64,000 nt of DNA from Nostoc sp. FACHB-152 (GTDB lineage Bacteria > Cyanobacteriota > Cyanobacteriia > Cyanobacteriales > Nostocaceae): positions 1 through 64,000 of the forward strand of contig NZ_JACJRV010000034.1 in assembly GCF_014697475.1 (NCBI RefSeq), in the 5' to 3' direction. Below the pieces are notes generated by a model that worked only from the letters and a program-made list of their open reading frames with translations, did no database searches and was not told where the DNA came from. Position numbers and translations under genes: made by a program. Below, piece by piece: positions 9,075-62,508 of the stretch; position 1 is the stretch's first letter, and each line of letters opens with the position of its first letter.

Positions 9075-9326
9075 GATTAGTGTGTTCCCTATTAATGACT
9101 CGGCTAGAGTTCAGTTATCTGTAATTATGCCAATGGAGCAATTGAAGTGGGACGATCTCAATCATGGATTTATGTGATTGTCGTCACTTAGGTGTTAATA
9201 TCGAGCGGAATCTACTTAAGTAAGTGATTACAGATATCGAAAAGCAGAAAAACAAAGCTCAAATGACCAATGACAAACGACTATTGACTATAAAATAGTC
9301 TTCTGTCCACTTGGTGCATTACTCCC

Positions 9327-11687
9327 ATGACCACCACCCCTAAAGATCCGTTTTCTCCCCAAGAAATTGCCTCCGAAGGTCTGAAGCCAGAAGAATACGC
9401 AGAAATTGTGCGACGTTTAGGTCGTCATCCTAACAAAGCAGAACTGGGAATGTTTGGGGTGATGTGGTCAGAACATTGCTGCTACAAAAATTCCCGACCC
9501 TTACTTAAACAGTTTCCCACTACAGGGCCACGTATTCTTGTCGGCCCTGGTGAAAATGCTGGAGTTGTTGACCTCGGTGAAGGATTACAACTGGCATTTA
9601 AGATTGAATCTCATAACCATCCCTCCGCCGTCGAACCCTTCCAAGGAGCCGCTACAGGTGTCGGTGGTATCCTCAGAGATATTTTTACAATGGGTGCGCG
9701 TCCCATTGCTTTATTAAACTCCCTGCGTTTTGGTTCTCTAGATGACCCTAAAACTCAAAGGCTATTCAATGGTGTAGTGGCTGGGATCAGCCATTATGGT
9801 AACTGTGTTGGCGTACCCACCATTGGCGGTGAAGTTTACTTTGACCCTGCTTATGCCGGAAATCCCTTAGTTAACGTGATGGCGTTGGGATTGATGGAAA
9901 CGTCAGAAATCGTTAAATCTGGGGCATCCGGTTTAGGTAATCCTGTGTTGTATGTCGGTTCGACCACAGGACGTGATGGGATGGGTGGCGCAAGCTTTGC
10001 CAGTGCAGAATTAAGTGATGCGTCAATGGATGACCGTCCGGCGGTGCAAGTCGGCGACCCATTTTTAGAAAAGTCATTGATTGAAGCTTGTCTAGAAGCG
10101 TTTAAAACAGGTGCAGTTGTCGCCGCCCAAGATATGGGTGCAGCAGGTATCACCTGTTCCACCTCAGAAATGGCAGCTAAAGGCGGTGTCGGGATCGAAC
10201 TAGATTTAGATAAGATTCCGGTGCGAGAAACAGGGATGGTTCCCTATGAATATTTGCTATCGGAATCTCAAGAACGGATGCTGTTTGTTGCCTACAAAGG
10301 TCGGGAACAGGAATTAATCGATATTTTCCACCGTTGGGGACTTCATGCTGTGGTGGCTGGTACAGTAATTGCTGAACCCATCGTCAGAATTTTATTCCGG
10401 GGTAAAATTGCTGCCGAAATTCCGGCTGATGCTTTGGCAGAAAATACGCCACTTTACGAGCGTGAGTTATTAGCCGAACCACCAGAATATGCCCGTCAAG
10501 CTTGGTCATGGACAGCCGATGCTTTGCCTGCTTGCACAACAGAGGGTATCGGTAGCCACAGTTGGAATGATATTTTATTGACTTTACTCTATACACCAAC
10601 GATCGCCTCTAAAAATTGGGTATACCGTCAGTACGATCATCAGGTACAAAATAATACTGTCGTTCTTCCAGGCGGTGCAGATGCGGCTGTAGTCCGTTTG
10701 CGTCCGCTAGAAGGGCAAGGGAGCAGGGGAGCAGGGGAGCAGGGGAAGACTTATAAATCGGCTGTGGCGGCTACAGTAGATTGCAATCCCCGTTATGTTT
10801 ACCTTGATCCCTATGAAGGTGCTAAGGCGGTAGTTGCAGAAGCAGCACGCAATCTTAGCTGTGTGGGTGCAGAACCTTTAGCTGTCACTGATAACCTGAA
10901 TTTTGGCAGTCCCGAAAAACCCATTGGCTACTGGCAATTAGCCGAAGCTTGTCGAGGTTTAGCAGCAGGTTGTCAAGAATTATCTACACCAGTCACAGGC
11001 GGTAATGTCTCTCTCTACAACGAAACTCTCGATTCCCAAGGCAACCCCCAACCAATTTATCCCACCCCTGTGGTGGGAATGGTCGGTTTAATTCCTGATT
11101 TCACCAAAATTTGTGGTCAAGCTTGGCAAGCAAGTGGCGATGTAATTTATTTATTAGGGTTAACCGTACAATCCAAAGTTGAATTAGGAGCATCAGAATA
11201 TTTAGCCACTATCCACAACACTGTGGCTGGCAAACCACCCCGCGTTAACTATGACTTAGAACGCCGTGTGCAACAGGTTTGCCGTGAAGGGATTCGCGCG
11301 GGTTGGGTACGTTCAGCCCACGATTGTGCAGAGGGCGGATTGGCTGTAGCTTTGGCAGAATCTTCGATAGCTGGCAATTTGGGTGCAGAGGTGAAATTAG
11401 AAATCTCTCCAAACCAATTACAACGTCTTGATGAAGTGCTGTTTGGCGAGGCTGGGGCAAGAATTATAGTTTCTGTGAGTTCAGAACACCAAGAAATTTG
11501 GGAATCCTACTTACAAGAACATCTTGGTCAAGAATGGCAAACACTAGGCATGGTTAATAATTTCGATGCAGGGTTGACGGTTTTAACTACTGATAACCAA
11601 ACCTTAATCGCAGTTAGTATTGAAGATATGAAGGGTCGCTACAATAATGCGATCGCTAACCGTCTAGCAGCATATACCACAACCTAA
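9327..11687 (+). CDS. purL: phosphoribosylformylglycinamidine synthase subunit PurL
   Basis: Purine synthesis step 4: FGAR, glutamine-derived ammonia and ATP give FGAM, together with PurQ and PurS encoded elsewhere. The 786-residue small-type PurL has [15 protein letters not shown] and [20 protein letters not shown] (ATP and metal site) in the first half. A second AIRS-type half contains [10 protein letters not shown] and [14 protein letters not shown]. Residues 465-474 ([10 protein letters not shown]) are encoded by three direct copies of an 8-bp repeat plus a partial copy. That looks like intergenic repeat DNA inserted in frame between the two halves. purF follows 169 bp downstream. Confidence 0.96.
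10719..10748 (+). repeat. tandem octamer GGGAGCAG x3 inside purL
   Basis: GGGAGCAG occurs at 10719-10726, 10727-10734 and 10735-10742, followed by GGGAAG. Three 8-bp units make 24 bp, so the reading frame is kept. The same octamer occurs twice in the non-coding stretch at 50117-50132. Confidence 0.85.
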
Positions 11688-22186: not shown

Positions 22187-24115
22187 ATGGCAAATTACTG
22201 GGCGATCGCAATCGGCATCAATCAATATCAATTCTTTCAACCTTTACGTTGCGCGCAAGCCGATGCCGAGGCGTTAAAAAACTTTTTGGTTGAAGAAGCA
22301 GGTATTACACCCCAACGCTGTCTTTTAATGACAGACACTTCGCCACCAATTGGGGATAGATCCACATATCCAACAAAAGAAAATATTCTGTTTTTGCTGG
22401 AAGATTTAGCGGCAGCTTGTTGGCAGCCAGGCGACCATGTATGGTTTTTCTTTAGCGGTTATGGTGTTAACCACGCTGGTCAAGATTACTTAATGCCAGT
22501 AGAGGGAAATCCTGAATTGCTTCAGGAAACTGCCATCGAAGTGCGATCGCTGCTACAAAGCCTACAATTAGCCCAAGTCAATGTTTTGGTATTGCTAGAT
22601 ATTAACCGTGCTTCCAGTACCCAAGCAGATGCGATCATTGGGCAAGAAACCATCGAACTAGCCAAAGAATTACAACTGGCGACGATTATTTCTTGCGAAC
22701 CAGAGCAATTTTCCCGTGAAAGTAGTGAGCTAGGTTACGGCTTCTTCACCGCAGCATTGTTAGCGGCTTTGCGTTCTGGTCATGGCAGTAGTTTAAAAGA
22801 TTTAGATAGTTATTTAAGTGTTTTCACTCCTGAATTATGTCAACACTATTGGCGACCTACACAAAACCCCGTTGCGATTATTCCTTCTAACCCGCCAGCT
22901 ATCTTACCGCATCAAGAAGTTAAGCATTCTAATGTAGTCATCCCAAGTACATTAGAACCAAGTGAAACACCACCCCAAGAATTACAGCTAAACGAAGAAG
23001 CCAGTATTTTTCCAGAAGAAAACTTTGCTGTAGCTTTAGCGGCTCCCCCCTTAGCCCCAACGTCTTCTACAAATGCAGCTAAACCACCAATAATTGGTAA
23101 TTGGGGCGAATTAGAATCAGCTGTTGGCTCAAAATATCCAAATTTTGCCCTAGAGACAGAAAAATTCTCAAAATCTCCAGACTTAGCAGTTAAAGAACAG
23201 TATTTCAACCAACAATCACAATTAATTCCTCCCTCCCCAGAAGCAACTAAGAGGTTCATCCCAGATATTCCTCAACCATACATATCTCGTTTACCTGGGA
23301 AAAAGACAAAAACCTCATGGTGGCAGCAATTTGTGTTTTGGGGAGGAGGTACGATGTTAGCGATCGCTGTAATAACAGTAGTGTTTCTTCGCAATCAGAC
23401 GAAACTGGTTGCAGGGGGAAAAATTTTATCAGCTTCATCGAATGAGCAGTCTGCAAGATCTGCCTTAAATCCCCCGAAAAATCAGTCAAATGCTCAATTA
23501 GTTGCTAATTCCGAAGAGTCACAAAAGCGGAATCAAGCGGTATTAGACTTAGCGAAAATGTCTCTTAGACAAACTCAAGCTAGTGACCTCAGTTTAGCGA
23601 TCGCTACAGCTCGTAAAATACCAGCAGGTGAGCCACTTTACGAACAAGCGCAAGAAAATATCAAAATTTGGAGCAATATGATCCTCAATTTAGCTGAGGG
23701 TCGTGCCAAGCAAAGACAGTATGCTAATGCCATTGCGGCGGCGCAATTAATCAGTAAAGATGAATTATTATATCCTCAAGCGCAAGCCTCAATTAACCAG
23801 TGGCGACAAGAAGCCAAGCAATACCTCGCTAACAAAACTTTACTAGATGCAGCTAATGCCTTAATCAAGCCAGGGCAAGCATCTACTTATAATCGTGCCA
23901 TTGAAGTCGCCAAGCGAGTACCCCAAGGTCAACCAGGATTTGATTTGGCACAGAAATCAATCAATAGATGGAGCGAAAAAATCTTAGATTTGGCGAAAGA
24001 CCGCGCTGCTGAAGGTAATCTTAAGGCTGCCATTGATACCGCCCACTTAGTCCCAGAAGTCACAGCAGTTTATGAAGATGCTCAAGAAGCAATCCAAAAA
24101 TGGCAGAAAAAATAG
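22187..24115 (+). CDS. membrane-anchored caspase-fold (C14) protein with replaced catalytic dyad
   Basis: A 642-residue protein. Residues 1-240 have the p20-like caspase/orthocaspase fold: YWAIAIGINQYQ, the ADAEAL helix, and FFFSGYG where FSGHG is expected. The catalytic His position is therefore Tyr92. The Cys position in LLDINRAS is Asn140. A proline-rich linker follows, then one membrane segment (about 378-400). The C-terminal 200 residues are helical repeats with a recurring LAxxxAxxxxYxxAIxxAxxI pattern. Cyanobacterial orthocaspases with non-His/Cys dyads are known and presumed inactive as proteases. The role is probably scaffolding or signalling. Confidence 0.82.
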   Translation: MANYWAIAIGINQYQFFQPLRCAQADAEALKNFLVEEAGITPQRCLLMTDTSPPIGDRSTYPTKENILFLLEDLAAACWQPGDHVWFFFSGYGVNHAGQDYLMPVEGNPELLQETAIEVRSLLQSLQLAQVNVLVLLDINRASSTQADAIIGQETIELAKELQLATIISCEPEQFSRESSELGYGFFTAALLAALRSGHGSSLKDLDSYLSVFTPELCQHYWRPTQNPVAIIPSNPPAILPHQEVKHSNVVIPSTLEPSETPPQELQLNEEASIFPEENFAVALAAPPLAPTSSTNAAKPPIIGNWGELESAVGSKYPNFALETEKFSKSPDLAVKEQYFNQQSQLIPPSPEATKRFIPDIPQPYISRLPGKKTKTSWWQQFVFWGGGTMLAIAVITVVFLRNQTKLVAGGKILSASSNEQSARSALNPPKNQSNAQLVANSEESQKRNQAVLDLAKMSLRQTQASDLSLAIATARKIPAGEPLYEQAQENIKIWSNMILNLAEGRAKQRQYANAIAAAQLISKDELLYPQAQASINQWRQEAKQYLANKTLLDAANALIKPGQASTYNRAIEVAKRVPQGQPGFDLAQKSINRWSEKILDLAKDRAAEGNLKAAIDTAHLVPEVTAVYEDAQEAIQKWQKK

Positions 24116-42254: not shown

Positions 42255-42614
42255 TTAGGCGATCGCAAATTCTGAATCTTTTCTCAGTTCCTCAGACCGA
42301 AATCCCAACACAATCTGATTTTTTGGTACACCAGCACTGACGAGTTCTGTTGCAATTCCCTCTTCCGTACCATCACGCTGAATCCAAATCTTACCATCGA
42401 TAATATCAACGTGAATCAGACAACCGTGAACACGACGAGTCACGGTAGGAGAAAAATCATACGCAGGTTCTCGTCCCAAAATCATCACAAGGTAACGATC
42501 TTGTTCTCTATCAAAAACTGTTTCAAATTGAATATCGCCAGTGCTGAAGGGAATTTTTGTATGTTCAATTAAAATATTTCGTATTAACTGCTTATATTGC
42601 TCCAGGGTATCCAT
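42255..42614 (-). CDS. xisI: XisI-like protein
   Basis: A 119-residue protein of the XisI family, first known as a factor controlling excision of the fdxN element in Anabaena heterocysts. Marks are FETVFDREQDRYLVM, RRVHGCLIHVDI, GKIWIQRDGTEEGIA and the end GVPKNQIVLGFRSEELRK. It overlaps xisH by 31 bp, so the two are co-translated. No fdxN element or XisF recombinase is in the window, and copies of this pair are scattered widely in cyanobacteria. An excision role here is therefore not supported. Confidence 0.9.
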   Translation of the reverse strand: MDTLEQYKQLIRNILIEHTKIPFSTGDIQFETVFDREQDRYLVMILGREPAYDFSPTVTRRVHGCLIHVDIIDGKIWIQRDGTEEGIATELVSAGVPKNQIVLGFRSEELRKDSEFAIA

Positions 42615-43018
42615 CGGAAAATAACCTCTTGTTCTAGGTTAAAGACAACGATATTAACTTTGTAATCCTCTACCAAAAGTTTAGCAATTGGCTCATCAAA
42701 GACATCGGCGTATACTTGGTCACGAACAGCAAGATAAAGGATGCGTTCAGGATTTGTTCTAGTCATGACAGAGCGATAGGATAGGTACTGCCCCAATGTA
42801 TGTTCGAGGTCTGTCATATCTGATACGCTGCGAAATGTTTTAATCTCAACTGCTATTAGTTGTCCTTCCTTTTCAGCAGCAATTAGTTTTTCTGCACCCA
42901 AATCAACATACATATCCCTTTTTCCCCATTTCAAATGAAAGGGATCATCTGTAATTGTCCAGCCATCTTTAATTAGGGCGTTCTTGACGTTCTCATGGTA
43001 GCGGTCTCTAACTGGCAT
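42584..43018 (-). CDS. xisH: XisH-like protein (PD-(D/E)XK nuclease fold)
   Basis: A 144-residue protein starting MPVRDRYHENVKNALIKDGW, the conserved XisH N-terminus. The central KRDMYVDLGAEKLIAAEK and the following VEIKTF form a PD-(D/E)XK-like nuclease core, so nuclease activity is plausible. FRSVSDMTDLEHTLGQYLSYR is also conserved in the family. It is the first gene of an overlapping xisH-xisI pair. It lies between the PMT gene and a TIR-FGE gene, all on the minus strand. Confidence 0.9.
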   Translation of the reverse strand: MPVRDRYHENVKNALIKDGWTITDDPFHLKWGKRDMYVDLGAEKLIAAEKEGQLIAVEIKTFRSVSDMTDLEHTLGQYLSYRSVMTRTNPERILYLAVRDQVYADVFDEPIAKLLVEDYKVNIVVFNLEQEVIFRWIPWSNISS

Positions 43019-43180
43019 ACATGGCTTAAGCTATTGATTGTCATGATTGTAATACCAGAACGTTAAAGGCTTACTAGTATTGCAGTACAGTATTTGCTGC
43101 AAAAAATCGATTCGCCATGAGGCGACAAAGGAAGAGAAAAAAAACAAGTGTAAAGTGTAAAAGGGTAAAAGTATAAAGGG

Positions 43181-44509
43181 CTACCGGAAAATCCTCCCAG
43201 CAGCGCACACAACACGATAACCAAAAGGGTCATCGAAGTTGACGCGCCCCGCCCTAACGTAGTTGAAGCGGAACGCAGAACGGCAGTATCTAGGATAGTA
43301 GATCCAGGAACCGCCCCGCAGCACGGCGTTTCCTGACTTTTGAAAAATATTGTCATTATCATTAAACCAAGGACTGCCATCTGTTGGCGCAGCTTCATAG
43401 TTAGCGTGCCAATCATCCAGACACCATTCCCACACGTTGCCGTGCATATCGTATAGTCCTAAATAATTGGGTGGAAAGCTGCCTACTGACGTTGTTTGTT
43501 TTCTATACTTTCCCTTAGGGGCTGCACCGTAAATGTAGTTACCATCATAATTAGCGACTTCAGTTGTGATTGTCTCACCAAAATGAAACGGAGTTGTCGT
43601 ACCAGCGCGACAGGCATATTCCCATTCCGCTTCACTTGGTAAGCGATAATTACGACCTGTTTTTTGAGAAAGCCTGTGACAAAATTCTACAGCCTCATAC
43701 CAAGAAACACGTTCTACAGGCAGATGATCATCTCCCTTGAAACGAGACGGTGTTGGATCTAAATCTCGATTGATTTTAGGACAAGAAGCAACAACTCTTG
43801 CCCATTGTTCTTGAGTGACGGCATATTTCCCCATAAAGAAAGTTGGAACGGTAACGTGATGGGTGGGGCGTTCATTATCTCTGCTTTCTGCTTCACTTTC
43901 AAAAGCACCCATTAAAAATGTGCCACCAGGAATCTCTACCATTTCTAACTTTACGCCAAACCCCAAATCTTCTAAAAAATATCTAGCTTGGCTGGTGCGA
44001 GTAAATTTTTTCGTTCCAGATTGGAATTTCACCGTTTCAAATTCAAATTCTTTTAAGAAAGTATTTTCTTGGGGTTGAGAAATCACCACACCTGCTTTAC
44101 TAAGTGCTGCAACAATTTCATTAACAACTTGCGGAATGCCTTTAGAAGTATTAGCCGCTAATTTGTCAGCTAAAGTGGGAGAAAAATCAAGAACTTGTTG
44201 ATATGAAACTTTGTGCCATATCGGCAGTATTGTTTTTCCAGATTGTAATTCTTTCTGTACTAGTCCTTGTAACTCGCGCTGTGTCCAAGATTTTTTGATG
44301 AAATCAGAGCTAATAACAATTATGCCAAACCTAGATTCTTTCAGTCCTTTATCAATTGAGCTACTTAAGCTATCTCCTACTGTCAAAGAAAATTCATCAT
44401 ACCAAACGCGATAACCTTTATCTCGCAACTTTTGCGCTAGAGGTCTGACAAATTCATCTTTATCTTCACTTGCATGACTGATAAATATGTCATGTTGATA
44501 GTTCATCAT
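43181..44509 (-). CDS. TIR domain fused to a formylglycine-generating-enzyme (C-type-lectin fold) domain
   Basis: A 442-residue fusion. Residues 4-135 form a TIR domain (HDIFISHASEDKDEF, VWYDEFSLTVGDSL) with the candidate NADase Glu E79 in SWTQRELQGL. Residues about 185-442 form an FGE-sulfatase domain (VEIPGGTFLMGAFE, RLPSEAEWEYACRAG, LYDMHGNVWEWCLDDW, LRGGSW, CRSAF, YRVVCAAGR). The segment 398-439 has 14 variable-type codons, all ending in C or T, as in DGR variable regions. TIR effectors act in signalling and anti-phage defence; the lectin-like end would be the recognition part. True FGE activity is unlikely. Confidence 0.88.
   Translation of the reverse strand: MMNYQHDIFISHASEDKDEFVRPLAQKLRDKGYRVWYDEFSLTVGDSLSSSIDKGLKESRFGIIVISSDFIKKSWTQRELQGLVQKELQSGKTILPIWHKVSYQQVLDFSPTLADKLAANTSKGIPQVVNEIVAALSKAGVVISQPQENTFLKEFEFETVKFQSGTKKFTRTSQARYFLEDLGFGVKLEMVEIPGGTFLMGAFESEAESRDNERPTHHVTVPTFFMGKYAVTQEQWARVVASCPKINRDLDPTPSRFKGDDHLPVERVSWYEAVEFCHRLSQKTGRNYRLPSEAEWEYACRAGTTTPFHFGETITTEVANYDGNYIYGAAPKGKYRKQTTSVGSFPPNYLGLYDMHGNVWEWCLDDWHANYEAAPTDGSPWFNDNDNIFQKSGNAVLRGGSWIYYPRYCRSAFRFNYVRAGRVNFDDPFGYRVVCAAGRIFR
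43193..43318 (-). other. candidate DGR variable region at the 3' end of the TIR-FGE gene
   Basis: Codons 398-439 run from RGGSW to VVCAAGR, the usual span of variable regions in FGE-type DGR targets. Positions 403, 404, 405, 408, 413, 415-418 and 423-427 carry ATC, TAC, TAT, TTC, GTT, GTC, GAT, GAC or AAC. Each of these can derive from AAC or AAT by changing only adenines. The invariant positions between them lack such codons. No template repeat or reverse transcriptase gene was found in the window. Confidence 0.6.
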
Positions 44510-51805: not shown

Positions 51806-54163
51806 TTAGCTAGTAACTACTTGCCAAATTTTGATTTTTTTGTCAGAGCTAGCACTAACAAGAAACTTCCCATCAGGACTAAGAGCCAGAGAGCTTATTG
51901 TACCTGAATGACCCGTGAGTGTATATAGTATTTCATTTGTAGAAATACGCCAAATATTAATTGTGCGATCGCCACTACCACTAAACAGTAGTTCTCCATT
52001 CGGACTAATCGCAATTGATTTCACTGCATCTGAGTGGCCGTTAAGAGTATGCAAGAGTTTGCCTGTGATCAAATGCCAAATTTTAATAGTTGTATCGGCA
52101 CTACCGCTAAACAGAAGTTGTCCATCAGGACTAATGGCAATTGATTGTACCTCGCCTGTATGACCTGCAAGTGTGCAGATTGGATCACCGTTGCGCGGGT
52201 TCCACAGTCTGATTTTGCTATCGGAACTACCACTGGCTAGAATGCTACCATCGGGGCTGATGGCCACAGCATGAACAGCAGCTGAATGCCAAAGTGTACA
52301 AATGCGATCGCCTTTATGCAAGTTCCAAATTTTAATTTTATTACTGCCAGTAGCGAGAATCTGCCCATCAGGACTAATATTTACAACATTGACTGGTTTT
52401 TGATGTCCTAAAAGTGTGTGAATTAATTGACCAGTTTTTAAACTCCAAACTGTAACATTACTTCTTGGATGTTGGCAGCTACCAACAGCTAAAAAATTAC
52501 CATCGGGACTAATAGCTACTGATGAAACTTCACCTAAGTTACTTGTAAGGGTGCGGATATGTTTTCCGCTTGGCAAATTCCAAATATTAATAGTTTGGTC
52601 AGCACAGCCACTAACTAAAATCTCACTATTAGGACTAATCGCTACAGATGTAACTTTGCCGGAATGACCAGTTAAGGTATGAATGAGTTCAGGAGATTCT
52701 AGAGTGCGTTTGTGTTTCAGATTTGCAATGGCTGCTAAAAGTTGGTCTACAGCTGCACTATTTTGGCGATCGCCTACTGCTGTAAAATATTCTTTTAACT
52801 TATAGATATACTCCTGATCTTCGATTTTGATTGCAGATTGCATTGCCTGTAATGGATGTAAAAATTCCCCAGTGGTAACTTGGCGCAACTCCAACCATGT
52901 CGTGATTGAATAGTCTACCTGTTCCTGCGCCCAAGTGCGATCGCTCAGATGGGTTAAACTTTGTGCTAATTGTAAAGCCAACTCTGGCACCCAATAACGC
53001 CGCTCCTTTTCCAGAGCCTGATAAACTTGTTGGTAACCTGTAGCATATACCCTGAGTAAGTTGTCATCAGCCATTGTCTGTGTATCTGACAATCGGGTAT
53101 CTTTCAGCAAACTAGGCAGCAATTGGGGTAACAAAGGCTGTACATCATGATGAACTAGGTGATAAGCATCTACTACCCAAGCAGCAACTAAGCAGTGGCA
53201 GGTAATTAAAACTTGGCTAAATTTAGCGATATCCTGATGATTAATTTGGTATTTTAACGACAATTTACTAGTATCAATACCTTTAGATTGCCATTTTTCT
53301 AACTTTTCTAAAATTGCCAAATTCTGAATATTATCACCACCTAGCTGATTAATTTCTTCTATGTCTTCTCCTATAGTTACTAGTTCATCTCTAGTTTTTT
53401 TCCACTCTAAGGCACGACTTTTAGCAAACTCCTGAATAATATCTTTATAAGCTAGGCGAGAAATTGTCTTATAAAAATAATTTTCTTGTCCTAAACCCCA
53501 ATAAGCAATGCGAAAATTTAAATAATCACCATCATGCTCTGACTCTAATACTAAAATCGGCTCTGTTTTTAACATACTAAACAAAGCCTTAATGCTAGAT
53601 TCACTATGAAAACGTTTACTATCCCAAGCTCCTGCTAAGAATTCTGTTGGTCGGAGAGGATCATGCAAAGAGTAATTTGTATTAATAAACTCACGCAAAC
53701 CCTCAGCTAAAGTTCTCTCTATTTCGGAAACTTCTTCATGATTAGACTCAAACTGGTCAAACTTAATTTGCGGAGGAGCCAGAAAAATTTTTAGTGGCGT
53801 ATGTTTGTGATGATGATTTCCTAAAATTTGGGAAGGGTATAACCTTAAAGGCCAGCTATCAAGAACTTTATTCATCTCTGGTAATTGAAGAGATGTATCT
53901 CTCTGTTGCTGTGCTACTTGTAATTGCGTTTCTCGGTGGTAAACAGCTAATTGCTTTTGGAGATTTTTTTCTTGTTGAAATTCTTCTTCAGCATTTTTAT
54001 TATTAGTTGTAATGCTGACGAATTCAAGCACCTCTTCGATGACTTTCGGAAATTGATAAGTAGTTGTAGCCAGCCCTTCTTCTGTTCTCTTTTGTACTAA
54101 ATTTACAACCACAGGTGCAAACTCTAGCACTAGTTGAATTAGTAATCTTAACCCTTGTTCCAT
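51806..54163 (-). CDS. WD40 repeat protein with an unfamiliar N-terminal half
   Basis: A 785-residue protein. Residues about 500-785 are seven WD40 blades, each with a GH dipeptide or variant, a VxSxAISPDGxxL core and an IKIW-type end, enough for a closed propeller. Residues 1-490 match no domain I know. They start with a hydrophobic helix (LLIQLVLEFAPVVVNLV), pass through a Gln-rich coiled region (about 65-95), and continue as a mostly helical part with conserved-looking WGLGQENYFYKTISRL and ITCHCLVAAWVVDAYH. No kinase or NTPase motif is seen. The propeller is probably a binding platform. Confidence 0.8.
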   Translation of the reverse strand: MEQGLRLLIQLVLEFAPVVVNLVQKRTEEGLATTTYQFPKVIEEVLEFVSITTNNKNAEEEFQQEKNLQKQLAVYHRETQLQVAQQQRDTSLQLPEMNKVLDSWPLRLYPSQILGNHHHKHTPLKIFLAPPQIKFDQFESNHEEVSEIERTLAEGLREFINTNYSLHDPLRPTEFLAGAWDSKRFHSESSIKALFSMLKTEPILVLESEHDGDYLNFRIAYWGLGQENYFYKTISRLAYKDIIQEFAKSRALEWKKTRDELVTIGEDIEEINQLGGDNIQNLAILEKLEKWQSKGIDTSKLSLKYQINHQDIAKFSQVLITCHCLVAAWVVDAYHLVHHDVQPLLPQLLPSLLKDTRLSDTQTMADDNLLRVYATGYQQVYQALEKERRYWVPELALQLAQSLTHLSDRTWAQEQVDYSITTWLELRQVTTGEFLHPLQAMQSAIKIEDQEYIYKLKEYFTAVGDRQNSAAVDQLLAAIANLKHKRTLESPELIHTLTGHSGKVTSVAISPNSEILVSGCADQTINIWNLPSGKHIRTLTSNLGEVSSVAISPDGNFLAVGSCQHPRSNVTVWSLKTGQLIHTLLGHQKPVNVVNISPDGQILATGSNKIKIWNLHKGDRICTLWHSAAVHAVAISPDGSILASGSSDSKIRLWNPRNGDPICTLAGHTGEVQSIAISPDGQLLFSGSADTTIKIWHLITGKLLHTLNGHSDAVKSIAISPNGELLFSGSGDRTINIWRISTNEILYTLTGHSGTISSLALSPDGKFLVSASSDKKIKIWQVVTS

Positions 54164-58001: not shown

Positions 58002-59399
58002 ATGGCAACTATCCCAGACTTGGAAAGCTACCAGCACCAAGACCTGACACTCTCTGCGGCTGATTACAGCTTGCTTACAGACCTTTACCAGCTGACAATG
58101 ACAGCTTGTTATATCGGTGAAGGATTAGAACAAAAACGGGCTAGTTTTGAGTTATTTGTGAGGCGATCGCCAGAAAATTTTGGCTATCTAATTGCAATGG
58201 GTTTAGAGCAAGCTCTAGCATATTTAGAAAAGTTAAGTTTTAATCATGCTCAAATTGCGGCTTTACAAGCAACCGGAATTTTTGCTAAAGCAAGCGATCG
58301 CTTTTGGTCATTATTAGAGACAGGAAAATTTACAGGCGATGTCTGGGCAGTTCCCGAAGGCACAGCCGTATTTGCTAATGAGCCATTGTTGCGAATTGAA
58401 GCACCATTATGGCAAGCACAACTGGTAGAAACTTATCTATTAAATACCCTCAATTATCAAACTTTGATTGCCACCAGGGCAGCACGGTTACGTGATATTG
58501 CTGGAGAAAAAGCCACACTTTTAGAGTTTGGTACACGACGGGCATTCAGCCCCCAAGGTGCTTTGTGGGCAGCAAGGGCAGCCTTAGCCGGCGGATTAGA
58601 TGCCACCTCCAATGTGTTAGCAGCCCTACAGTTAGGGCAACAACCAAGTGGTACTATGGCTCACGCCTTAGTTATGGCGTTATCAGCAATGGAAGGCAGT
58701 GAAGCAGAAGCTTTTACGGCGTTTCATCGGTATTTTCCGGGTGCGCCATTATTAATTGACACATACGATACCATCGCGGCTGCTGAAAGGTTAGCGGCAA
58801 AAATCAATGCTGGAGAATTGGAATTATCGGGAGTCAGACTAGACTCTGGTGATTTGGTGAGTTTGTCAAAACAAGTGCGATCGCTTTTACCAAATGTGCC
58901 GATTTTAGCTAGTGGCGACTTAGATGAATGGGAAATTGCCAGACTCAAGGCGGCTGGGGCTGTAATTGATGGCTATGGTTTGGGGACACGACTGGTTACA
59001 GGTACGCCTGTTAACGGAGTTTACAAGCTTGTCGAAATGGATGGCATTCCAGTGATGAAGCAGTCTAGTGGTAAGGGGACTTACCCAGGACGCAAGCAGA
59101 TTTTTCGGTCGTTTGTCGGGGGTAAAGTACAAGCTGACAGGTTGGGGTTAGTTACAGAAACACCGCAATCAGAAACGCCTTTACTGCAATTGGTAATGAA
59201 AGAAGGTGAACGGGTGCAATTGCCAGAAACTTTGGCAGAAATTCGCCAACGAACTGCGATTTCGGTGGCGAGTTTACCAGAGGAGACACGGCGGTTGTCG
59301 AATCCTGTTGGTTTACAGGTGGAGATTTCTGCACAGTTGCAGGAGTTGACGGAGAAGACGAAGAGACTAACCGCAAAGGACACAAAGAGTGCGAAGTAA
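58002..59399 (+). CDS. pncB: nicotinate phosphoribosyltransferase
   Basis: Salvage step: nicotinate plus PRPP gives nicotinate mononucleotide. The 465-residue protein has LLTDLYQLTMTACYIGEG, LEFGTRRAFSPQGALWAARAA, the His region GTMAHALVMALSAMEGSEAEAF, and the PRPP-site RLDSGDLVSLSKQVR. It is the first gene of a cluster with nadD, an NrtR-like regulator and nadE. nadD starts 2 bp after its stop. The last 25 residues are a Lys/Thr-rich tail. Confidence 0.95.
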   Translation: MATIPDLESYQHQDLTLSAADYSLLTDLYQLTMTACYIGEGLEQKRASFELFVRRSPENFGYLIAMGLEQALAYLEKLSFNHAQIAALQATGIFAKASDRFWSLLETGKFTGDVWAVPEGTAVFANEPLLRIEAPLWQAQLVETYLLNTLNYQTLIATRAARLRDIAGEKATLLEFGTRRAFSPQGALWAARAALAGGLDATSNVLAALQLGQQPSGTMAHALVMALSAMEGSEAEAFTAFHRYFPGAPLLIDTYDTIAAAERLAAKINAGELELSGVRLDSGDLVSLSKQVRSLLPNVPILASGDLDEWEIARLKAAGAVIDGYGLGTRLVTGTPVNGVYKLVEMDGIPVMKQSSGKGTYPGRKQIFRSFVGGKVQADRLGLVTETPQSETPLLQLVMKEGERVQLPETLAEIRQRTAISVASLPEETRRLSNPVGLQVEISAQLQELTEKTKRLTAKDTKSAK

Positions 59400-59400
59400 G

Positions 59401-60003
59401 ATGATGAGAATTGCTTTATTTGGTACAAGTGCCGATCCGCCAACGGCTGGGCATCAAGAGATTTTAAGGTGGTTGTCGGAACGTTATGATTGGGTAGCGG
59501 TTTGGGCGGCGGATAATCCGTTTAAATCTCATCAAACGCCTTTAGAACATCGGGCGGCGATGCTGCGACTGTTAATTGCCGATATGGAAGCACCACGGCA
59601 CAATGTTGCAGTAGCACAAGATTTGAGTAGCTGGCGGACACTGGAAACAGTAGAAAAGGCGAAACAGCATTGGGGCGAAGAAGCTGAATACACCTTAGTA
59701 ATTGGTTCAGATTTAATCAATCAACTACCACGCTGGTATAAAATTGAAGATTTATTACAGCAAGTGCAACTTTTGATTGTGCCACGACCAGGATATGCGC
59801 TAGAAGAATCTACCTTAGAGGCAGTGCAGAAACTCGGAGGAAAAATTGCGATCGCCAGCCTTATGGGTCTAAATGTCTCCTCGACAGCCTATCGTGAACA
59901 TGGAGATACTGAAGCTCTCATAGCTCCCATTGTTGCCTATATTCATCAACAGCATTTGTACAAATGCCAGGACGCAACCACAAAAAGATTTCAACTCCGC
60001 TAG
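59401..60003 (+). CDS. nadD: nicotinate-nucleotide adenylyltransferase
   Basis: Converts nicotinate mononucleotide and ATP to deamido-NAD. A 200-residue nucleotidyltransferase with [17 protein letters not shown], in which the expected HxGH first His is Thr-Ala-Gly-His (TAGH), and the late ISSTxxR-type motif as [14 protein letters not shown]. Two adjacent ATGs (59401, 59404) are possible starts; an in-frame GTG at 59389 lies inside pncB. The next gene begins inside its 3' end (40-bp overlap). Confidence 0.88.
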
Positions 60004-60710
60004 ATCAACAACCTTTGGCTGATTTTAAAGTAGGTGTTGATAATGTAATTTTTTCTGTAGATACTACTCAAAATCGACTTTTGGTTCTCTTAGTCATGCG
60101 ACAGCAAGAACCATTTTTAAATCAGTGGAGTCTTCCTGGTACGTTAGTGCGTCAAGGCGAATCTTTAGAAGATGCTGCCTATCGCATCATGGCCGAGAAA
60201 ATCAGAGTCAACAATCTCTATTTAGAACAGTTGTATACCTTTGGCGGGCCAAATCGCGATCCGCGGGAAGCAACTGATAGTTATGGCGTGCGTTATTTAT
60301 CAGTTAGTTATTTTGCCCTCGTCAGATTTGAAGAAGCAGAATTAATTGCCGATAAAGTCTCTGGAATTGCTTGGTATCCAATTAAACAAGTGCCACAATT
60401 AGCCTTCGACCATAATGAAGTTTTAGCTTATGGTCACAGACGACTGCGAAATAAATTAGAGTACAGTCCGGTTGCATTTGAAGTTTTACCAGAAATGTTT
60501 ACCTTAAACGATTTGTATCAGTTGTACACCACAGTTTTAAGCGACAACTTTTCTGATTACTCTAATTTTCGGGCGCGTCTACTCAAATTAGGTTTTTTGT
60601 GCGATACCGGAGTAAAGGTATCACGGGGTGCTGGTCGCCCAGCTAGTTTATATAAATTCGATGCTGAAGCTTTTGCACCATTTAAAGATAAACCTTTGGT
60701 GTTTATTTAA
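59964..60710 (+). CDS. nrtR: NrtR-like Nudix-related transcriptional regulator
   Basis: A 248-residue protein with an N-terminal Nudix-fold domain (about 20-165) and a C-terminal winged helix (about 175-245, with [13 protein letters not shown] and GRPASLYKF). The Nudix box is degenerate: GTLVRQGES, then RIMAEKIRV in place of the REXXEEXG core, so hydrolase activity is unlikely. NrtR proteins repress NAD-synthesis genes and release DNA on binding ADP-ribose or similar ligands. Its place between nadD and nadE and the palindrome before pncB support this role. It overlaps nadD by 40 bp. Confidence 0.85.
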
Positions 60711-60713
60711 ACA

Positions 60714-60734
60714 GGCAATAGGCAATAGGCAATA
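60714..60734 (+). repeat. heptamer tandem repeat GGCAATA x3
   Basis: Three perfect units just after the nrtR stop. They are followed by TATTGACCAATGACAAATGAC-type short repeats up to the nadE start. Confidence 0.8.
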
Positions 60735-60786
60735 GTAATTTATTTTTGGCTATTGACCAATGACAAATGACTAATGACAAATAACT

Positions 60787-62508
60787 ATGAAAATTGCGAT
60801 CGCTCAACTTAATCCTACAATTGGTGACTTACCTGGCAACTCCCAAAAAATTCTCCAAGCAGCACAACAGGCGGTAAAGACAGGCGCACGTTTATTGTTA
60901 ACCCCAGAACTTTCTTTGTGTGGTTATCCACCAAGGGATTTATTACTCAATCCCAGTTTTGTGTCTTCTATGGAGATGACATTACAACAATTAGCCAGAG
61001 ACTTGCCACCCAAGTTAGCTGTTTTAGTAGGAACTGTTGACCACAATACTAAATCGCAGATCACTGGCGGTAAAAGTTTATTTAATAGTATGGCTTTGTT
61101 AGAAGAAGGCAAAGTCAAGCAAATGTTTCACAAGCGGCTTTTGCCTACTTATGATGTATTTGACGAACACCGCTATTTTGAACCTGGTTTACAAGCTAAT
61201 TATTTCACCTTAGATGGTGTCGATATCGGCGTAACCATTTGCGAAGATTTATGGAATGACGAAGAATTTTGGGGCAAACGTAGTTACGCAGCTAACCCGA
61301 TTGCAGACTTAGCAATTTTGGGTGTAGATTTAATTATCAATTTATCAGCTTCGCCTTATAGCGTCGGCAAACCGCAGTTTCGAGAAACTATGCTCAAGCA
61401 TAGCGCAGTGCGTTTTCAACAACCGATGATCTATGTTAATCAAGTAGGAAGTAATGATGATTTAATATTTGATGGTCATAGTTTCGCCTTGAATGACCAA
61501 GGTGAAATTATGTGTCGCGTTCGTGGTTTTGAGACTGACTTAGTAAATGTTGAATTTAACGAGACACAACGAGATTTACAGTTAAGTTCTTTAAACCCTG
61601 TATGCGAATCAGAAGAAGAGGAAGTTTGGCAAGCCTTAATCTTAGGTGTAAAAGACTATGCAAAGAAATGCTGCTTTTCTAAAGTCGTATTAGGATTAAG
61701 TGGCGGTGTAGATTCGGCATTAGTAGCAGCGATCGCAACTGCTGCACTCGGTAAAGAGAATGTCCTTGGTGTCCTCATGCCTTCTCCTTACAGTTCCGAA
61801 CACTCTGTAAATGATGCCTTAGCATTAGGAAAAAATCTCGGAATTGAAACTACTATCTTACCCATAGGCGAGTTAATGCAAGGCTTTGATCAAAGTCTCG
61901 CTGATTTGTTTGCTGGCACAGAATTTGGCATCGCCGAAGAGAATATTCAATCCCGGATTCGCGGTAACTTATTAATGGCGATCGCCAACAAATTTGGCTA
62001 TCTTTTATTATCCACAGGTAACAAGTCAGAAATGGCTGTTGGTTACTGTACCCTCTACGGCGACATGAACGGCGGGTTAGCTGTCATTGCTGATGTTCCG
62101 AAAACTCGCGTTTATAAAATTTGCCATTGGTTAAATCGTCATGGCGAAGTTATTCCCCAGAATGTCCTAACCAAAGCCCCCAGTGCGGAACTCAAACCTG
62201 GCCAAGTTGACCAAGACTCCTTACCCCCCTACGAAGTTTTAGACGATATCTTGCAACGTCTAATTCATGACCATCAATCAGCAGCCCAAATAGTTGCAGC
62301 TGGTCACGACTCAATCATTGTAGACCGAGTAATTCATATGGTTGCCCGTGCTGAATTTAAGCGGCGACAAGCACCCCCCGGATTGAAAATTACCGACCGC
62401 GCCTTTGGGACTGGCTGGCGAATGCCAATTGCTAGTAGCTGGGTAGCAATCAAAAATGCTTATCAAGCAAGATCTATGCCTACCTCTACCTTGGCATCTA
62501 AGGAATAA
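60787..62508 (+). CDS. nadE: glutamine-hydrolysing NAD+ synthase
   Basis: Last step of NAD synthesis: deamido-NAD plus ATP and glutamine-derived ammonia. The 573-residue protein has an N-terminal nitrilase-type glutaminase with a Glu-Lys-Cys triad (TPELSLCGYPP, HKRLLPTY, VTICEDLW). The C-terminal synthetase has the pyrophosphatase loop LGLSGGVDSALVAAI, and STGNKSEMAVGYCTLYGD. It follows nrtR by 76 bp and ends at the hairpin at 62529-62563. Confidence 0.96.
   Translation: MKIAIAQLNPTIGDLPGNSQKILQAAQQAVKTGARLLLTPELSLCGYPPRDLLLNPSFVSSMEMTLQQLARDLPPKLAVLVGTVDHNTKSQITGGKSLFNSMALLEEGKVKQMFHKRLLPTYDVFDEHRYFEPGLQANYFTLDGVDIGVTICEDLWNDEEFWGKRSYAANPIADLAILGVDLIINLSASPYSVGKPQFRETMLKHSAVRFQQPMIYVNQVGSNDDLIFDGHSFALNDQGEIMCRVRGFETDLVNVEFNETQRDLQLSSLNPVCESEEEEVWQALILGVKDYAKKCCFSKVVLGLSGGVDSALVAAIATAALGKENVLGVLMPSPYSSEHSVNDALALGKNLGIETTILPIGELMQGFDQSLADLFAGTEFGIAEENIQSRIRGNLLMAIANKFGYLLLSTGNKSEMAVGYCTLYGDMNGGLAVIADVPKTRVYKICHWLNRHGEVIPQNVLTKAPSAELKPGQVDQDSLPPYEVLDDILQRLIHDHQSAAQIVAAGHDSIIVDRVIHMVARAEFKRRQAPPGLKITDRAFGTGWRMPIASSWVAIKNAYQARSMPTSTLASKE

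Follow-up and report, generated by a model that had tools for sequence, protein, structure and literature searches.

A TIR–FGE fusion gene of Nostoc sp. FACHB-152 is probably an orphan target of a diversity-generating retroelement

Was the 3′ end of a gene that joins a TIR domain to a C-type-lectin-like (FGE) domain in Nostoc sp. FACHB-152 written by a diversity-generating retroelement (DGR), and is the retroelement still there to rewrite it? The gene occupies 43181..44509 on the minus strand of the 64,000-nucleotide stretch analysed here (the window) and, according to the list of open reading frames (ORFs), encodes 442 residues, with its stop codon at 43181-43183. The original prediction, made from the letters alone, held that it is, or was, targeted by a DGR located elsewhere, with the TIR as its output.

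Pfam profiles identify TIR_2 at residues 8-101 (6e-23) and FGE-sulfatase at residues 189-421 (3e-57). The TIR domain, residues about 6-135 (44105..44494, minus strand), carries Glu79 within a W-x-x-x-E-L stretch. A phmmer search matched it to AbTIR (8g83) with an E-value of 5e-46, and the alignment places Glu79 where NAD-consuming TIRs have their conserved active-site glutamate, opposite an AbTIR glutamate that we take to be the catalytic residue. In the PADLOC defence library the domain matches PDC-S66 (1e-64) and ThsB (1e-35). The solved structures nearest in sequence are AbTIR and other bacterial TIRs for the TIR part, and PvdO and the Treponema denticola variable protein 1 (E 9e-23) for the FGE part. 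A fold search using the predicted model agrees, retrieving PvdO, the Treponema variable protein 1 and TIR structures; the AlphaFold model itself is middling, with a mean pLDDT of 74.5 that stands at about 58-67 in blocks around the variable region. From these comparisons it is plausible that the TIR, which is nearest to NADase TIRs, would serve as the output of the protein.

The next gene downstream encodes XisH (42584..43018, minus strand; Pfam XisH 5e-55) and overlaps a gene for XisI (42255..42614, minus strand; Pfam XisI 4e-38). An XisH/XisI pair also lies directly 3′ of a TIR-lectin gene in Okeania sp. SIO3B5 (L187, about 9300-10155), which may be chance. The window further contains genes for a WD40-repeat protein and a caspase-domain protein (51806-54163 and 22187-24115), as well as the NAD-supply genes for nicotinate phosphoribosyltransferase and NAD synthase (58002-62508), about 14 kb from the TIR gene and likely a coincidence.

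The 3′ end of the TIR–FGE gene is a DGR variable region (VR; 43193..43321, minus strand), homologous to the template repeats (TRs) of relatives and delimited by TR alignments and by a comparison of sister species. Its place, as in DGR targets, is the 3′ terminus of a gene with a C-type-lectin fold. Homology to the TR and VR of the congener G004 extends from about 43321 to 43193 and, judged by eye, the sequences diverge past GGGAGG, in agreement with the predicted end at 43193. Since no TR was found in the own genome, we compared the window VR with TRs of other species, and the pairing is one across species, with drift of either partner mixed in. The differences fall on template adenines, as in a DGR target: they affect 20/35 adenines and 10/99 other bases of the G004 TR (Fisher p = 7.5e-8), 22/35 and 16/99 of the G084 TR (p = 4.9e-7), and 18/34 and 10/103 of the G232 TR (p = 5e-7), which gave the best alignment score of all TRs. 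Sorted by codon position 1, 2 and 3, they number 11, 10 and 4 of 41 each against the G232 TR and 11, 11 and 5 against the G004 TR; this weighting toward the first two positions is opposite to what ordinary drift produces. As controls we used two FGE paralogues from the same genome that have neither the VR pattern nor a VR-type tail. Against the G004 TR, L004 differs at 6/12 adenines and 11/42 other bases (p = 0.11; short alignment) and L006, which is not VR-like, at 22/33 and 32/83 (p = 0.0055), whereas the window VR differs at 19/33 and 7/87 in the same comparison (p = 3.3e-8). These controls indicate that the loop varies in the FGE fold generally and that the low divergence at non-adenine bases is what is special to the window gene.

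The original prediction rested on 14 codons (403-405, 408, 413, 415-418 and 423-427) said to be reachable from AAC or AAT by changing adenines alone. The reading frame and the listed codons read as claimed, and all 14 end in C or T (14/14 NNY, versus 208/390, or 53%, in codons 1-390). Comparison with real TRs provides a check that is not post hoc. The adenine origin stands for 13 codons, which carry template adenines in both the G004 and G232 TRs and at which the window differs from the template in 11 (G004) or 10 (G232) cases; it falls for codon 413 (TTC), where these TRs read TCT/TCC. The evidence is weak at codon 403 (ATC), which is AAC in the G004 TR and already ATC in the G232 TR. Four adenine-changed codons were absent from the list, namely 407 (AAA>AGA), 421 (GAG>GGG), 428 (AAT>CCT) and 429 (ATT>TTT), and the third base differs too at codon 426 (AAC>GAT). 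With these corrections the observation holds, and the variable codons become 403-405, 407, 408, 415-418, 421 and 423-429.

The window species is represented by one strain, and the sister test was made on G014, G253 and G254, three species that all belong to a single other genus. Their proteins are identical pairwise at 117-118/127 TIR positions (92-93%) and 185-191/213 FGE positions. Within the VR, the framework is identical at 22/30, 27/30 and 24/32 residues in the three pairs, and the variable residues at 1/16, 5/16 and 2/17 (p = 1.2e-5, 7.7e-5 and 2.6e-5 versus the VR framework). Counted at codon positions 1, 2 and 3, the pairs differ by 13,7,4; 8,6,0; and 14,4,4 in the loop, by 6,2,12; 5,2,11; and 5,0,9 in the TIR part, and by 13,11,21; 12,11,20; and 20,14,19 in the FGE part, so that VR changes occur mostly at positions 1 and 2 and TIR-part changes mostly at position 3. 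Hypervariability confined to the VR among close relatives, as expected of a DGR target, is therefore found in three sister species of another genus. Shared residues at the variable positions of related orthologues, which the original prediction had named as evidence against itself, are clearly not what these pairs display. Between the window protein and those of G253, G014, G254 and G038, the variable residues are identical at 2/16, 4/17, 2/17 and 0/16 positions and the VR framework at 72-83%. The VR also varies in length among these orthologous genes (L267 of G253 and L090 of G038 versus L089 of G014), which is not expected from one constant template and leads us to infer templates of other types for G253 and G038. 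It counts against the reading favoured below that a pattern search found no RAER-type TR in G014, G253 or G254, the very species whose loops differ so strongly; G014 has full-length DGR reverse transcriptases (RTs) and at least one TR of a shorter type.

Genes with VRs in this group commonly have the same kind of ending: behind the stop codon comes a pyrimidine stretch of about 50 nt, then, some 55 nt past the stop, a short GC hairpin, and finally a T-run. The window gene has all three on the minus strand: a pyrimidine-rich tract directly behind the stop (43127..43180; 0.84 C/T in its first 50 bases), the small hairpin TCGCC-TCAT-GGCGA (43112..43125) and a T-run (43101..43106) of the kind seen in other tails too. 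The pyrimidine fraction reaches at least 0.7 after 74/91 VR-like ends and at most 0.6 after 33 TRs. Scoring as perfect a hairpin with a stem of at least 5, at least 4 GC and a loop of 3-5 in tails of at least 95 bases, we found one behind 31 of the 74 VR ends with a pyrimidine tract (the window gene and 30 of the other 73), against a mean of 0.67 and a maximum of 4 in 100 dinucleotide shuffles; the corresponding counts of 1/33 TRs and 1/17 other ends lie within the shuffle range. Stems vary among genomes (TCGCC in the window; TCCGCC, GTCGCC, TCGCGC and CTCGCC elsewhere) with pairing kept. The remaining 43 VR ends lack a perfect hairpin; an AGCG-repeat element is present in 27 of them, and 16 carry neither feature. 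An inverted repeat after the VR but not after the TR is what an acceptor should look like, whereas the GRNA loop and 7-10 bp stem of phage DGR acceptors are absent here (loop TCAT, stem 5 bp). In phage BPP-1 such a hairpin is described as needed for efficient retrohoming, its stem sequence being free (Guo et al. 2011, PMC3240598), and by this analogy the hairpin-bearing tail is likely an acceptor signal. The combination of hairpin and T-run could equally be an intrinsic terminator.

The own assembly (8,618,724 bases in 190 contigs; a draft with completeness listed as 100%) was searched for the machinery. A single RT exceeds the Pfam cut-off, a 601-aa ORF with PQGGTISP that on visual inspection resembles a group II intron maturase with an HNH terminus; a query with the G004 RT yielded one match (E 1.7e-10), presumably this same ORF. 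BLASTN at E <= 1 returned no second copy of the VR or a TR, and no TR was found by the framework pattern allowing 3 mismatches, by a general TR pattern or by the RAER-type pattern. The flank typical of TRs was not found either, the best hit being one 28-base match (E 0.13). A scan for adenine-compatible copies with <=22 mismatches across the window and L001-L016, including the regions of four-helix genes, recovered only the TIR–FGE gene itself. There are five such 23S_rRNA_IVP/Avd-like four-helix genes (L012, L013, L015 and L016), a class that may include Avd, and no TR-like stretch was seen in the fetched regions around them. The marks of an active DGR, a DGR-type RT and a VR-matching TR, are thus both missing from the 8.6-Mb assembly, in which the search proposed with the original prediction turned up neither a near-identical template nor a DGR RT. 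The missing RT and TR do not refute a DGR origin, since VRs for which no RT was found are common among the relatives too (below); this outcome, which the original prediction had counted against itself, bears on present activity. Of the phrase 'is, or was', the 'was' is upheld by the adenine-specific TR differences, the hypervariable sister orthologues and the VR-type tail, and the 'is' finds no TR, TR flank or DGR RT in the assembly. With RT and TR absent from it, the loop in its current form has probably become fixed.

We consider it probable that the TIR–FGE gene is DGR-made and now an orphan target, best read as frozen and perhaps imported. Its product would be a single-chain sensor-effector, in which a TIR akin to NAD-consuming ones precedes a C-type-lectin-like (FGE) domain whose binding loop would have been rewritten by a diversity-generating retroelement. 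A long 'RAER'-type TR, of a type found in a few relatives, would have served as template for a cDNA into which any base could enter where the template has adenine. This cDNA would then have taken the place of the gene's 3′ end, the hairpin tail behind the stop being the likely acceptor. The DGR would afterwards have been lost in the lineage, unless the gene arrived already diversified. The loop may bind a phage or neighbour antigen as its ligand, and on binding the TIR would cleave NAD, so that the cell is stopped or killed.

Arrival as a diversified cassette, never diversified in this lineage, is a special case of the orphan-target reading to which we give a little under an even chance. A search of 217 family genomes, 10 congeners among them, found full-length orthologues in G253, G014, G254 and G038 only, plus a 58% one in G067; in G056 and G166 the FGE part alone matches. 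This scarcity, the lack of a match at E <= 1e-130 in 10/10 congeners and a neighbourhood in G014 unlike that of the window (a shared neighbourhood was considered and rejected, as the two ORF lists do not match) speak for import. On the other hand, the identity of 70-72% to the nearest orthologues points to no recent donor, and the same picture would result had the congeners lost the gene.

An active target, served in trans by an RT and a TR on a plasmid, a phage or an unassembled contig, appears improbable to us. Diversification in trans has been described for Thiohalocapsa (PMC10907252), but RT, TR and TR flank all remain unfound in the 8.6-Mb assembly. The relatives bear on this question in both directions. 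The VR DNA was searched against 150 genomes, of which 83, the own genome included, match at E <= 0.001, and RTs were counted at loci L019-L047, which represent the 29 best-matching of the 82 non-own genomes. Among the matches listed, full-length DGR RTs occur in 8/29 relatives (G004, G011, G014, G025, G031, G043, G083 and G084) and RT fragments alone in 5/29 (G038, G039, G046, G080 and G088), and no DGR RT occurs among them in 16/29. These counts come from one query protein (the G004 RT) and mostly draft genomes, the RT status labels used in the comparisons below were assigned by hand from the same search, and the genome-wide RT search excluded G232, G253 and G254. RT-like ORFs of G006, G035, G070, G022 and G041 were considered as distant DGR RTs and not counted, as four read QGAVISP and one QGGVLSG; this RT motif distinguishes DGR-type from other RTs. 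Several relatives (L260, L261, L262 and L263) also have stand-alone RTs that read QGAVISP, measure about 320-350 aa and have no visible maturase part.

Re-tested against the best TR of any genome, at least one VR in each of 14 of the 16 relatives without an RT among the matches listed has an adenine bias of p <= 0.001 (G019 and G041 gave no row); for second VRs the bias came out at p = 0.02 in G003, 0.0008 in G035 and 0.0004 in G058. The congener G005, assembled as one contig and with no RT among the matches listed, differs at 18/34 adenines and 3/95 other bases, a point in favour of activity in trans; for comparison, the VR of the RT-bearing G084 differs from its own TR at 15/34 and 4/95, and the G004 VR at L019 from its own TR at 11/34 and 16/95 (p = 0.05). 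VRs without an RT among the matches listed also stand about as close to TRs at non-adenine bases (median difference 0.112, n=20) as those with one (0.126, n=9; Mann-Whitney p = 0.85). Against activity in trans, G005 and a second one-contig congener, G008, hold VR-like ends with no DGR RT among the matches listed, and perfect hairpins occur a little less often where no RT is among the matches listed (12/34 versus 18/33 with one, p = 0.14), a hint of decay but not proof; hairpin or AGCG element together occur in 26/34 versus 27/33 (p = 0.77).

That the loop is that of an ordinary FGE or lectin domain under positive selection, with NNY arising from the fold's codon habits and no DGR ever involved, is very improbable: FGE paralogues do vary in the loop, L006 even reaching significance against the TR, and the own genome yielded no DGR, but the framework DNA is near real TRs with its differences concentrated on template adenines, the loop of the sister orthologues has a codon-position pattern unlike that of the TIR and FGE parts, and the gene carries a VR-type tail, whereas L004 and L006 show neither pattern nor tail.

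TRs of the type that matches the window VR occur, among the 217 family genomes, in G004, G084, G184 and G232, and with one mismatch in G183; G200 has a truncated one adjoining an RT-like ORF. VR-like ends of the long type of the window gene occur in 20 genomes besides G093, among 62 with VR-like ends. TRs without a DGR RT among the matches listed are found in G019 (L137) and G090 (L135), and the G232 TR (L253) is followed by the flank typical behind TRs elsewhere, with no RT-like ORF within the 3-kb locus; these three are possible decay stages. G004 has two genes with VR-like ends, an RT (IGNLTSQ, YVDD) and a TR side by side. Within this DGR (G004:C21; L048 8500-8740 and 9690-9915), a small inverted-repeat insertion seems to part VR1 from its tail, and a frame before the RT, by eye only the end of an Avd-like protein, abuts the VR2 tail, on which grounds the G004 DGR may be damaged.

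Because long-type VR ends occur in 20 genomes besides G093 and a matching TR in 5/217, and because VRs without an RT among the matches listed lie no farther from TRs at non-adenine bases than the rest, we tentatively raise a broader and rather doubtful proposal, that VRs in this cyanobacterial family form a standing acceptor pool that outlives resident DGRs. RTs and templates would be gained and lost, or be brought in for a time by mobile DNA. By way of the hairpin tail that the receptors share, they would rewrite many remote ones, even from templates that differ in length, and the repertoires left after them would be frozen.

Few sources of programmed protein variation in bacteria are as strong as DGRs, and a TIR receptor with the imprint of a DGR but no machine suggests that the product can be kept after its generator has gone. 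The count among relatives turns this into a testable question, namely whether the repertoires are frozen or the generator is mobile. VRs without an RT imply that RT-first surveys miss targets, for which the VR tail offers a searchable mark.

TIR and lectin targets, remote VRs and VR hairpins are already published; our searches of the open PMC literature turned up no account of a genome that has VRs but no DGR RT at all. PMC7517822 (2020) describes cyanobacterial variable proteins with TIR-like domains whose VRs are remote from the RT, and the window protein resembles these in having a C-terminal CLec module with its VR close to the 3′ end, a signalling part at the N-terminus, which in some of them is likewise TIR-like, and a VR away from any RT. 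That paper proposes that cruciforms lie close to remote VRs and that the machinery is removed once selection has acted, citing all3226 of Nostoc PCC 7120; like the window gene, all3226 has remnant TR-VR homology and no RT nearby. PCC 7120, as described there, retains two DGRs, unlike the genome studied here, in which no DGR was found, and likewise unlike 16/29 of the best-matching relatives among the matches listed. Adenine mutation has been reported in Nostoc punctiforme (PMC12691664). DiGReF duplicates in which one RT was lost are similar in having distal targets, adjoining a strongly mutated RT gene, but they are described as keeping another RT in the genome (PMC3521204), unlike the case here. 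The tail resembles that of the BPP-1 VR as characterized in PMC3240598, with a GC-rich inverted repeat behind the VR and a stem sequence free to change; it differs in that the hairpin lies about 55 nt past the stop, behind a pyrimidine tract and ahead of a T-run, with stems of 5-7 bp and, in place of the GRNA loop, loops that measure 3-4 nt, TCAT, GTCA, GAA and TCT among them. By sequence the TIR domain is like that of AbTIR/ThsB-type proteins, but here it is fused to a lectin-type sensor, with no Thoeris partner shown. The DGR antigen sensors of multicellular bacteria, as presented by Dore et al. 2024 (PMC10907252), have STAND NTPase or MoxR-type partners; here the neighbours scanned were XisH/XisI and part of the window ORFs. 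Those systems are alike in joining TIR or peptidase effectors to diversified targets, and they also share diversification in trans and a reading in terms of defence.
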